From assembly GCF_900458435.1 (NCBI RefSeq), contig NZ_UHCT01000001.1, positions 2,294,001 through 2,358,000 of the forward strand: DNA of 64,000 nucleotides, written 5' to 3'. Position numbers and translations under genes: made by a program. A model generated the notes under the pieces. It was not told the DNA's origin. It worked only from the letters and a program-made list of their open reading frames with translations, and made no database searches. The stretch comes from Staphylococcus carnosus (GTDB lineage Bacteria > Bacillota > Bacilli > Staphylococcales > Staphylococcaceae). Position 1 is the stretch's first letter, and each line of letters starts with the position of its first letter. Shown here in pieces: positions 21,770 through 32,026 of the stretch.

Positions 21770-22519
21770 ATGAGTCAAGCAGCAGAAACTTTAGATGGTT
21801 GGTACAGCCTCCATTTATTCTATGCAGTAGATTGGCCTACATTACGTCTTGTACCTGATGAAGACCGTATCCAAATCGTTCAAGAATTCCATGATTTCTT
21901 GGACAAATTAGCGTCAGTACGTGATGATCATAATGGCGACCATGCGCTATATAATATTACAGGTCAAAAAGCCGACATCCTTTTATGGGTTTTACGTCCT
22001 GAAATGCAAGAATTGAACTCAATCGAGCTCGCACTTAACAAATTACGTATTGCAGATTACTTAGTACCTACTTATTCATATGTTTCTATCATTGAACTCA
22101 GCAACTACTTAGCTGGCAAATCAGATGAAGACCCATATGAAAATCCGCATGTAAAAGCACGTTTATATCCTGAATTACCACATTCAGATTATATCTGTTT
22201 CTATCCAATGAACAAACGCCGTAATGAAACATACAACTGGTATATGCTATCAATGGAAGAACGCCAAAAATTAATGTATGACCATGGTATGATTGGTCGT
22301 AAATATGCTGGTAAAATCAAACAATTTATCACAGGATCAGTTGGTTTTGATGACTACGAGTGGGGTGTCACACTATTTGCACAAGACCCACTACAATTCA
22401 AAAAAATTGTTTATGAAATGCGCTTTGATGAAACTACAGCACGTTACGGCGATTTCGGCAGTTTCTTCGTAGGACATGTCTTGCCAGAAGAAACTTTAGA
22501 AACATTCTTCAGAATCTAA
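21770..22519 (+). CDS. hemQ: HemQ, coproheme decarboxylase
   Basis: A 249-residue chlorite-dismutase-fold protein. In Firmicutes this enzyme decarboxylates coproheme to heme b in the coproporphyrin-dependent pathway. The catalytic tyrosine Y145 (in YICFYPM) and proximal histidine H172 (in MYDHGM) are both at the positions known for the S. aureus enzyme. [19 protein letters not shown] follows. AAAGGAG precedes the ATG, and a strong terminator follows. The gene is monocistronic. Confidence 0.95.
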
Positions 22520-23013: not shown

Positions 23014-23160
23014 ATGTATAATGCAATACCGATTATCTACTTCTTCTTTATCATTTGGATTATCACATATAAAAGAAAAATAAAGATAAATATAAAAAAC
23101 TGTACTAAAAACATTGCTTATCTATGTATAAAGACGAACGGAACTTGCCTATTTACTTAG
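23014..23160 (+). CDS. Candidate 48-residue one-helix membrane peptide
   Basis: A frame of 48 codons starts MYNAIPIIYFFFIIWIITY followed by a basic stretch (KRKIKINIKN), a single membrane segment with positive-inside tail. AAAGGA lies only three bases before the ATG, closer than ideal. It follows the decayed bacteriocin-like gene, where a small immunity peptide would be expected. Its last codons run into the hairpin at 23140, so the true 3' end is doubtful. An overlapping shorter frame (ATG at 23021) exists. Confidence 0.3.
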   Translation: MYNAIPIIYFFFIIWIITYKRKIKINIKNCTKNIAYLCIKTNGTCLFT

Positions 23161-23176
23161 CGCAAGTTCCTTTTTG
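23140..23176 (+). terminator. Terminator of the bacteriocin-like remnant region
   Basis: GGAACTTGC and GCAAGTTCC form a 9-bp perfect stem followed by TTTTTG. Confidence 0.88.
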
Positions 23177-23235
23177 CTCCCATTTATAGTCATGCTATAT
23201 AATATATAAGTCAAAGACAGAATACTGCACAACAC

Positions 23236-23494
23236 AAAAAGTGAGCGACACCTATGTACCACCCTCTGTATGCTGCCTAACACAGCCTAAACAATAGTGG
23301 CACTGACCAAAGGCATCCCTCACTCTAAATGCCGGCAGTATCTGCCTGCAAGCGCACACGTGTATGGCTTGTAAATACAGTGTCGCTCATCCCTTGTGTA
23401 GTGTCCCTGGAGAACTTTGCCACTACTTGTCAATCTCTCTGGTTAACTGCGAAGCGATGCCAACCGTCGCTACTCAGTTAACAGCTTTCAACAG
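23236..23494 (-). ncRNA. Candidate structured RNA, about 260 nt
   Basis: Reading leftwards, a TATAAT box (23501-23506) is followed by GTTAACTG/CAGTTAAC with an inner AGCGA/TCGCT stem (23442-23482). A GTAGTG/CACTAC hairpin comes next (23398-23426), then a 10-bp closing stem, TGAGCGACAC/GTGTCGCTCA (23242-23251 with 23380-23389). Inside that lie GGCAG/CTGCC and GGCAT/ATGCC stems. The closing stem is followed on the minus strand by TTTTT (23236-23240), so the whole looks like an independent RNA ending in its own terminator helix. GC content is clearly above the flanks. It does not look like RNase P, tmRNA, SRP or 6S RNA. Confidence 0.5.
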
Positions 23495-23500
23495 CCAACC

Positions 23501-23506
23501 ATTATA
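23501..23506 (-). promoter_or_regulatory. -10 box of the structured RNA candidate
   Basis: A perfect TATAAT on the minus strand, 8 to 10 bases before the inferred RNA start. The -35 region is weak (TTTCAA-like). Confidence 0.4.
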
Positions 23507-23925
23507 ACTTTAACCGTTTTGAAATATTTGAAACATAAAGTAATGATAAAAAAACCATATAATGGAACACCTCTAATTTACTTATATTCTATATTCAAAA
23601 TTAATTTTAAATTACACAACTACGACTTTCACAACATTCTATATTTCCATTCGTAGAGTCTTTTACTTATAGCTCATTTTATAATCAAATCCAAAAGCAT
23701 TTACTTTTAACCATTATATTCGTTCTCTTATTTTGTTGTTTTTTCAATTTATTTTAATATATTTTTTTATTCTTAGACCCATTTAAAGTGTCTTGATTCC
23801 TAATTTTTACATGAATATTACAAAATAATACCTTGAGTATCTTTAGTTTTTACGACATAATCGTAATAGTCCATGTAATTTTCAAAAAAATCGAAATTTA
23901 TGTGAAAATAAAATACGCCTATTAA
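23507..23925. other. AT-rich gene-free stretch before the exporter genes
   Basis: About 420 bases of very AT-rich sequence with short runs of T and A. I see no gene, repeat or convincing operator here. The promoter of the downstream exporter pair is presumably in its right-hand 100 bases. Confidence 0.5.
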
Positions 23926-31418: not shown

Positions 31419-31453
31419 CGGCATTGCTCTAAATTGAGTGATGCCACTTTTTA
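31419..31453 (+). terminator. Terminator of pdxK
   Basis: GGCATTGCTC pairs with GAGTGATGCC (two wobble positions), followed by ACTTTTTAT. Confidence 0.75.
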
Positions 31454-31628
31454 TATACATCAAAACTATTAATACAACCCCTCATATTTAATTATAGTTA
31501 CTTTTCAAAATTTCAACTCGAAGGCTCTCGGTAATTAGTCTGAGAAGAAGATGGTCTCATTGTATGAGTGAAAGTTGATGCTAAAGCCTCATGTTTTCAA
31601 GTTGAATATCTAATACAATAATTAATGT

Positions 31629-31728
31629 AGAGGGAGCGGCACAAGTGTAAATCCGAAACAATCCTGAACATAGATTCTAATGATAATCGTTACACCTTTC
31701 TACCCACCCTAAAATGTCAGCTCCCTCT
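31629..31728. ncRNA. Structured intergenic element of about 100 nt
   Basis: AGAGGGAGC (31629-31637) pairs perfectly with GCTCCCTCT (31720-31728), and inside it GTGTAA (31645-31650) pairs with TTACAC (31690-31695). No T-run follows on either strand. It might be a dispersed palindromic repeat, a regulatory RNA or a small mobile element. No coding frame is visible. Confidence 0.4.
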
Positions 31729-31844
31729 CAAATATGATGCAATAAAATCGCGTATAACCTCCTAAATAGACGTGAAATTCATATCCTAACTTAAACATGA
31801 AATTGCATTAACAGTTAATCTAATCATTGAATTTAAAAAGCCGT

Positions 31845-31970
31845 AAATTGTCTTTCCCCTGACACAATTTGCAGGCACACCCTAAAAATATAGCATCACT
31901 GTCCCTTGTGAGATTGTCCCTTCTCTCAAGTTACCTGATTTGTCCCTTCAGGTTCGACAGTGGTGCTTTA
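31845..31970. ncRNA. Structured element with repeated UGUCCCU loops
   Basis: On the + strand AAATTGT/ACAATTT encloses CTTTCCCCTGAC (31845-31870). A 12-base closing stem follows, AGCATCACTGTC (31892-31903) with GACAGTGGTGCT (31956-31967, one wobble). It encloses two hairpins: CTTGTGAGA/TCTCTCAAG with loop TTGTCCCT, and ACCTGA/TCAGGT with loop TTTGTCCCT. TGTCCCTT thus occurs at 31900, 31915 and 31941. The + strand end is followed by TTATTT, the minus strand end by TATATTTTTA, so direction is not settled. C-rich loops are typical of staphylococcal sRNAs that target ribosome sites. Confidence 0.5.
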
Positions 31971-31979
31971 TTTATGTGA

Positions 31980-32026
31980 AAAATAAAAAACACGGAAAGC
32001 TACGCATATGCGCAAACTTCCCGTGC
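31980..32026 (-). terminator. Terminator of the ProP-like gene
   Basis: CACGGGAAG pairs with CTTTCCGTG on the minus strand (one G-U), with inner GCGCATATGC self-complementarity, followed by TTTTTTATTTTT. Confidence 0.9.

Follow-up and report, generated by a model that had tools for sequence, protein, structure and literature searches.

Genomic context and overall architecture

In the window, a 64,000-nucleotide stretch of the Staphylococcus carnosus genome, a gene on the + strand and one on the − strand, named from their sequences as thiD and the gene of a ProP-type transporter, respectively, have their 3′ ends facing each other. The naming in the table for strain TM300 (PMC5343137) agrees with this assignment. 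Between the two genes lies a C-rich RNA on the + strand, and sequence alignments revealed that its conservation spans ~350 bases, beginning with a TACAAT box that does not vary and closing with a T-rich tail that ends at 31975. An initial annotation of this DNA had placed a structured element at 31845-31970. As the conservation runs over ~350 bases, from TACAAT to the tail, the hairpins noted there constitute the 3′ domain of a ~350-nt RNA; the annotated interval is a real element that makes up roughly one third of the RNA, at its 3′ side. The features of the locus, compared among eight species, are as follows.

31525-31540, + strand: block CTCTCGGTAATTAGTC, conserved upstream of the RNA and possibly an activator site of its promoter; in 8/8 species with 0-1 mismatch to CTCTCNNNAATTAGTC
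31614-31619, + strand: putative −10 box TACAAT; invariant in 8/8
~31626-31975, + strand: whole C-rich RNA, ~350 nt, both ends predicted; conserved in 8/84 genomes, fits SCAs008
31629-31728, + strand: domain I, closing helix 31629-31637 with 31720-31728; 72/72 cells paired in 8 sequences
31693-31708, + strand: C-rich segment CACCTTTCTACCCACC, 3′ part unpaired; one variable base in 8 species
31755-31766, + strand: unpaired TAACCTCCTAAA, complement of the consensus Shine-Dalgarno sequence; invariant in 8/8
31780-31789, + strand: CATATCCTAA, CCTAA unpaired; one variable base in 8 species
31816-31836, + strand: A/U-rich block TAATCTAATCATTGAATTTAA, mostly unpaired, separating domains II and III; a single base varies among 8 species
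31840-31876, + strand: domain III hairpin with loop TTCCCCTGA (31854-31862); TTCCCCTGA invariant in 8/8
31878-31887, + strand: linker CACCCTAAAA; present in 8/8
31892-31967, + strand: domain IV, Y shape, 12-bp stem around two hairpins; from folds and covariation
31892-31903 with 31956-31967, + strand: 12-bp closing stem of domain IV; predicted fold
31905-31930, + strand: hairpin 1 of domain IV; predicted fold
31914-31921, + strand: loop of hairpin 1, UUGUCCCU; GUCCC invariant in 8/8, stem covaries
31933-31953, + strand: hairpin 2 of domain IV; predicted fold
31939-31947, + strand: loop of hairpin 2, UUUGUCCCU; GUCCC invariant in 8/8
31967-31975, + strand: tail TTTATTTAT, rich in U, that follows the closing stem, together a putative intrinsic terminator; T-rich in 8/8

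No good −35 element was found upstream of TACAAT, and a plain promoter scan performed near chance (four found versus 2.8 expected). The conserved block at 31525-31540 may bind an activator of the RNA promoter. A second regulon site for this block was sought and rejected, with nine other matches in the eight genomes versus 17 in the reversed control. Also upstream of the promoter, at 31541-31571, the window genome and G052 are ~24 bases longer than G004, G015 and G084, and the length difference sits between AATTAGTC and AGTTGAT. On the other side of the RNA, an imperfect inverted repeat, CACGGAAAG...CTTCCCGTG, lies at 31991-32025 and is followed by a T-rich stretch on the minus strand; judged from its sequence, it is probably the proP terminator abutting the 3′ end of the RNA, although a simple scan makes no call there.

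The RNA of the window contains no ATG-started + strand frame of at least 20 aa, and its TTG-started frames are of 36 and 29 aa. In G004, the 3′ half of the RNA is overlapped by an ATG-started frame of 72 aa; given the absence of any such frame of at least 20 aa in the window RNA, it is not kept there, and we take it and the two TTG frames as chance. These three frames would speak for a dual function in which the RNA also encodes a short peptide, and RNAIII shows that staphylococcal sRNAs are capable of both roles (PMC3861533). However, the lack of an ATG-started + strand frame of at least 20 aa in the window RNA, together with alignment indels of lengths not divisible by three, speaks against coding, and we regard this as highly improbable.

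The Y-shaped 3′ domain

On the + strand, 31845-31970 folds to −39.4 kcal/mol, compared to a mean of −21.0 (sd 3.4) for dinucleotide shuffles (z −5.41), none of 200 shuffles being equally stable. The fold of the minus strand is weaker, with a z of −2.81 and one of 200 shuffles as good. The folds of three relatives gave z values of −5.1, −4.7 and −8.3. The 12-base stem and the two hairpins with matching loops, as described in the initial annotation, are borne out by this + strand fold, and the C-rich loop that it had noted upstream of the Y-shaped domain is present as TTCCCCTGA. The hairpins and loops of this domain are thereby confirmed as observed.

The same annotation had counted three TGTCCCTT motifs here. 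The window contains six copies on both strands, compared to 1.4 expected, and three of the six fall within 49 bases. The two copies in the loops hold, whereas the third (31900-31907) does not behave alike: seven of its eight bases are paired in the predicted fold, and it is present at that place in the window genome alone, the other seven species differing. At the 3′ end, a GC stem followed by a T-rich tail occurs in 8/8 sequences, the tail of G083 having seven T in a row. The stem is forked, and a simple terminator scanner makes no call; transcription is predicted to terminate at this domain.

Conservation and covariation of the fold

The eight sequences, seven of them distinct, each form the same Y-shaped 3′ domain when folded singly. 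In four of the eight, the full-length fold was compared with shuffles, and 0/60 were as stable in each case. Over 26 pairs in seven distinct rows, 95.6% of the cells are paired, compared to 88.9% in shuffled and 37-51% in slid controls. Six of the 26 pairs are changed on both sides, a number as high in 5/500 shuffles, and the covariation score is 0.260 versus 0.122 (sd 0.018) for shuffled and 0.033-0.099 for slid alignments. In the variety of pair types, the alignment does not differ significantly from the shuffles (75/500). The covariation alignment was built by sequence, and the structure was derived from the same sequences; moreover, related sequences without any structure can exceed shuffle controls. 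As the structure came from the same sequences and shuffles ignore relatedness, which the slid control keeps, the slid control weighs most.

The closing helix of domain I occurs with three distinct arm sets, and two of its positions switch between G-C and A-U from species to species. Domain II was also subjected to folding and alignment, and the pairs counted there are four, all invariant. In domain III, a hairpin around TTCCCCTGA appears in each of the eight folds with differing arms, those of G083 and G084 being judged from single-sequence folds. The initial annotation had proposed compensatory changes and conservation of the loop motifs as its checks, and both turned out in its favour: the stems covary while the GUCCC loops stay fixed, both GUCCC cores being invariant in 8/8 species. 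The GUCCC loops, TTCCCCTGA and TAACCTCC are all invariant while stems change around them; in the loop of hairpin 2, the bases flanking GUCCC differ between two groups of species.

Conserved unpaired segments

About eight C-rich segments recur along the RNA, namely AAUCCU, CACCUUUCU.CCCACC, UAACCUCCUAAA, CAUAUCCU, UUCCCCUGA, CACCCUAAAA and the two GUCCC loops, of which the second (CACCUUUCU.CCCACC) and the fourth (CAUAUCCU) are partly paired. Averaged over the eight sequences, the invariant unpaired columns comprise 33 A, 31 C, 21 U and 2 G. In the four of eight sequences that were compared with shuffles, unpaired UCC/CCC triplets number 13, 12, 13 and 13 versus 8.4, 8.4, 8.6 and 6.8 in the shuffled counterparts, a modest enrichment that 2, 8, 2 and 0 of 60 shuffles equal. 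Unpaired C in the four sequences is below that of most shuffles, 55-60 of 60 carrying as much or more; for unpaired G, three of the sequences have low values and G083 does not. As composition against shuffles is weak or mixed, the best argument is that the loops stay invariant while the stems around them change, rather than composition. The RNA thus combines a conserved fold with C-rich motifs that are both conserved and unpaired.

These single strands might alternatively serve a protein. The C-rich and A-rich strands and the A/U-rich block would then hold a protein of the cold-shock type or another single-strand binder, with no mRNA pairing at all. Such a role would suit the longest nearly invariant unpaired block (31816-31836), which is A/U-rich and the complement of whose first 16 bases, at up to one mismatch, occurs at the RNA locus only in the eight genomes; it would likewise suit the target scans described below, from which no mRNA emerged. 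Yet the C-rich strings differ from one another, so that no single protein motif is repeated, and several of them have Shine-Dalgarno-like complements. We consider a protein-binding RNA unlikely.

Distribution and genomic neighbourhood

A blastn search with a 226-base query found the RNA in 4/40 genomes, and one with a 391-base query in 8/84 genomes of the genus, its own genome included in both counts. The covariance model R1, built from the 3′ domain, recovered the same eight genomes at E ≤0.01: 8/84 in the genus and 8/157 in the order, or one of 14 genera; the runs in genus and order used stricter filters, with which some weak matches are lost. A wider family was rejected, as R1 recovers these same eight genomes alone at this threshold. 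A possible ninth holder, G055, has a match of E 0.16, which was taken as chance because it lies inside a long coding frame. In a collection with one genome per species (84,980 species), from which records close to the window may have been left out, the exact domain I pattern occurs in three named records, all of Staphylococcus simulans. A plasmid collection gave no match to the RNA. The RNA was found in these eight species and in none of the other 76 genomes searched in the genus. Of the holders, S. carnosus serves as a starter culture for meat, and its relative S. simulans is associated with animals; the RNA would offer a clean, non-virulent model for the origin and the target choice of C-rich sRNAs.

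The neighbourhood of the RNA varies among its holders. In G084, the RNA is kept with proP absent beside it. In G018, it is kept without thiD alongside either, and PhnE-like transporter genes stand in the place of thiD. As the RNA persists without proP alongside in the one genome and without thiD in the other, action in trans is favoured. The location between thiD and the ProP-type gene, whose 3′ ends face each other, would also suit a cis element, i.e. a 3′ UTR, an antisense control of thiD/proP or a long terminator between convergent genes. Against this stand the absence of proP and, in one genome, of thiD beside the RNA, a separate terminator-like site after thiD (31420-31445), the conserved TACAAT that the RNA has of its own, the lack of overlap with either gene, and the listing of a separate transcript, SCAs008, at this place (PMC5343137). 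A cis element has very little probability.

Probable correspondence to the catalogued transcript SCAs008

Broach et al. 2016 (PMC5343137) performed RNA-seq on S. carnosus TM300. Table 2 of that paper gives SCAs008 (jacL-8) at 239896..240240, with a length of 345 nt, orientation ‘<’ and an RPKM of 1253.87, and places it between proP and thiD. The orientation ‘<’ corresponds to the + strand of the window, since the window runs the other way, with thiD first, then the RNA and then the ProP-type gene. SCAs008 and the C-rich RNA accordingly share neighbours and orientation and are of 345 and ~350 nt, respectively. The positions are also similar, the locus lying ~245 kb from the end of the reversed contig, compared to 240 kb in TM300. 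The table also lists SCAs009 at 248359..248731, orientation ‘>’, with an RPKM of 26355.27. The spacing of 8.46 kb between SCAs008 and SCAs009 puts the latter at ~23140-23512 on the minus strand of the window, on top of a probable RsaA homolog. Because of this double fit, with SCAs008 at thiD/proP and SCAs009 on the RsaA match, the C-rich RNA most probably corresponds to SCAs008, with a strong match in neighbours, orientation, size and spacing to SCAs009.

The initial annotation had named the lack of a transcript as refuting its reading, and SCAs008, tabled in PMC5343137 at the matching place and orientation, speaks against such a lack. There, SCAs008 is a row of a table that gives no structure, family, motif or function. 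A literature search under the name SCAs008 returned PMC5343137 as the sole bacterial source, and a search for sRNA literature on S. carnosus and S. simulans returned no title devoted to this RNA. The transcript is already catalogued; as far as we searched, neither its conservation nor its fold had been described before, and an anonymous RNA-seq row would thereby become a testable regulator.

The probable RsaA homolog was matched by the RsaA model at 23372-23500 on the minus strand with 34.3 bits (E 0.0012), below the cut-off of 50, and another place in the window genome scores 33.3 bits. All eight genomes have RsaA matches, none over the cut-off, and two of them contain a second match of similar score elsewhere. 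The sequence at the place of the homolog is conserved in all eight genomes examined. We take the 249-aa frame at 21770-22519, a neighbour here, to be SA0544. The assignment rests on position, conservation in all eight genomes and the fit of SCAs009, not on score. The RsaA of S. aureus N315 is located between SA0543 and SA0544 (PMC3386247). Altogether, 23372-23500 on the minus strand, with a transcript at ~23140-23512, is probably a divergent RsaA homolog.

The initial annotation had proposed a kinship between the C-rich RNA and this element at 23.3 kb. This did not hold: the element is a probable RsaA homolog on the minus strand, opposite to the C-rich RNA, and the strings that seemed to be shared are not on the strand of its probable transcript but on the other one. 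Their complementarity brings up another reading, in which the C-rich RNA would be a sponge titrating another RNA, such as the probable RsaA homolog ~8.5 kb away on the other strand. The complements UGUCCCU:AGGGACA and UCCCUUGUG:CACAAGGGA both exist in the window genome, and cases in which one sRNA acts on another are known, namely SprY/RNAIII and RsaI/RsaG (PMC9266662). However, the RsaA homologs read AAGGACA in 7/8 genomes, and CACAAGGGA is kept in 4/8 with its partner UCCCUUGUG at its place in the window genome only. As the complements are not kept across species, a sponge for RsaA is most improbable.

Comparison with known staphylococcal sRNAs

A search of the window with Rfam 15 gave no match at gathering score, and a known Rfam family is ruled out for the C-rich RNA, where no match was found. 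Like RNAIII (RF00503), it is a long staphylococcal RNA with UCCC loops. It is nevertheless not RNAIII, having neither an RF00503 match nor a delta-hemolysin ORF, as the lack of an ATG-started + strand frame of at least 20 aa in the window RNA indicates, and RNAIII occupies a separate locus, above the cut-off in 7/8 genomes; the eighth, a draft of many contigs, has weak pieces only. RsaA (RF01816), an sRNA of the Rsa group, is probably its neighbour in the same chromosome region. No RF01816 match was found at the C-rich RNA at E up to 5, and the matches of the eight genomes lie elsewhere.

The C-rich RNA shares with IsrR several conserved single-stranded C-rich regions accompanied by stems (PMC9410917), and for IsrR, pairing with Shine-Dalgarno regions was shown in that paper. 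IsrR is described there as an RNA of 174 nt with three C-rich regions, located between arlR and pgpB, carrying two Fur boxes and present in all screened genomes of the genus, whereas the C-rich RNA is of ~350 nt with about eight segments, lies at the thiD/proP locus, has no Fur box above chance and occurs in 8/84 genomes. IsrR is ruled out by the locus, flanked by thiD and the ProP-type gene, and by the absence of Fur boxes at the promoter. With the 19-bp Fur consensus, the window contains no match at up to three mismatches; with its 17-bp core, one match with three mismatches is found inside the RNA (31677-31693), compared to 1.5 expected in the window. This Fur-like 17-mer is the same in G052 and weaker in the other relatives.

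The C-rich RNA is longer than RsaE and LhrC. RsaE/RoxS (PMC3861533) and Listeria LhrC have UCCC motifs in unpaired regions, as does the C-rich RNA, which differs from both in its four domains and in having no Rfam match. It is a real, conserved RNA of RNAIII size and of regulatory type, with the forked terminator-like domain as its odd feature.

Proposed mode of action and target searches

Accessible UCCC or C-rich boxes are described as elements that pair with Shine-Dalgarno sequences (PMC3861533, PMC9410917). Accordingly, we propose that the locus produces an independently transcribed noncoding RNA of ~350 nt with four structured domains, of which the Y-shaped domain would form the 3′ end. 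Its roughly eight conserved and mostly unpaired C-rich segments, two of them presented in the twin loops of the Y-shaped terminator-like domain, would most likely find their pairing partners in the purine-rich Shine-Dalgarno regions of several mRNAs. Such pairing with mRNA start regions would block ribosome binding and thereby switch off the target genes. We regard a trans-acting C-rich RNA that pairs with Shine-Dalgarno sequences as the best explanation and a likely one.

The initial annotation had read the element as a C-rich staphylococcal sRNA. The kind of RNA stands, i.e. a structured noncoding RNA of the + strand with conserved unpaired UCCC-type loops, whereas its pairing with ribosome sites did not find the same backing, no specific target having emerged from the pattern scans or from the duplex pilot in the window. 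The pattern of AAGGGACAA followed by ATG within nine bases gave 45 matches in the eight genomes versus 12 in the reversed control; 30 of the 45 loci were read, and none of these starts a recognised gene. The complement of CACCTTTCTACCCACC at up to three mismatches gave 62 matches, including eight self-matches of the RNA, versus 66 in the reversed control. In the duplex pilot with 58 start regions from the window, the segments did not exceed shuffled ones in pairing energy, since 17/60 dinucleotide and 41/60 base shuffles equalled or surpassed them; antisense segments paired more weakly.

A more elaborate form of the trans-acting reading can be put forward tentatively. In the carnosus-simulans staphylococci, the RNA would act as a hub riboregulator, specific to this clade and similar in size to RNAIII, with about eight distinct anti-Shine-Dalgarno segments displayed on four domains and with a forked (three-way-junction) terminator that contains both seed loops, and it would be switched on via the conserved upstream block. 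Taken as a whole, this is possible, if rather doubtful. To present two seed loops on a forked, terminator-like domain would be an unusual design.

Apart from this RNA, a repeat was observed in G000 (C1 1476788-1476824), where AAGGGACAAATG occurs twice in opposite orientation, 10 bases apart. The inverted repeat is also present in G052, and related matches in a single orientation are found in G004 and G015.
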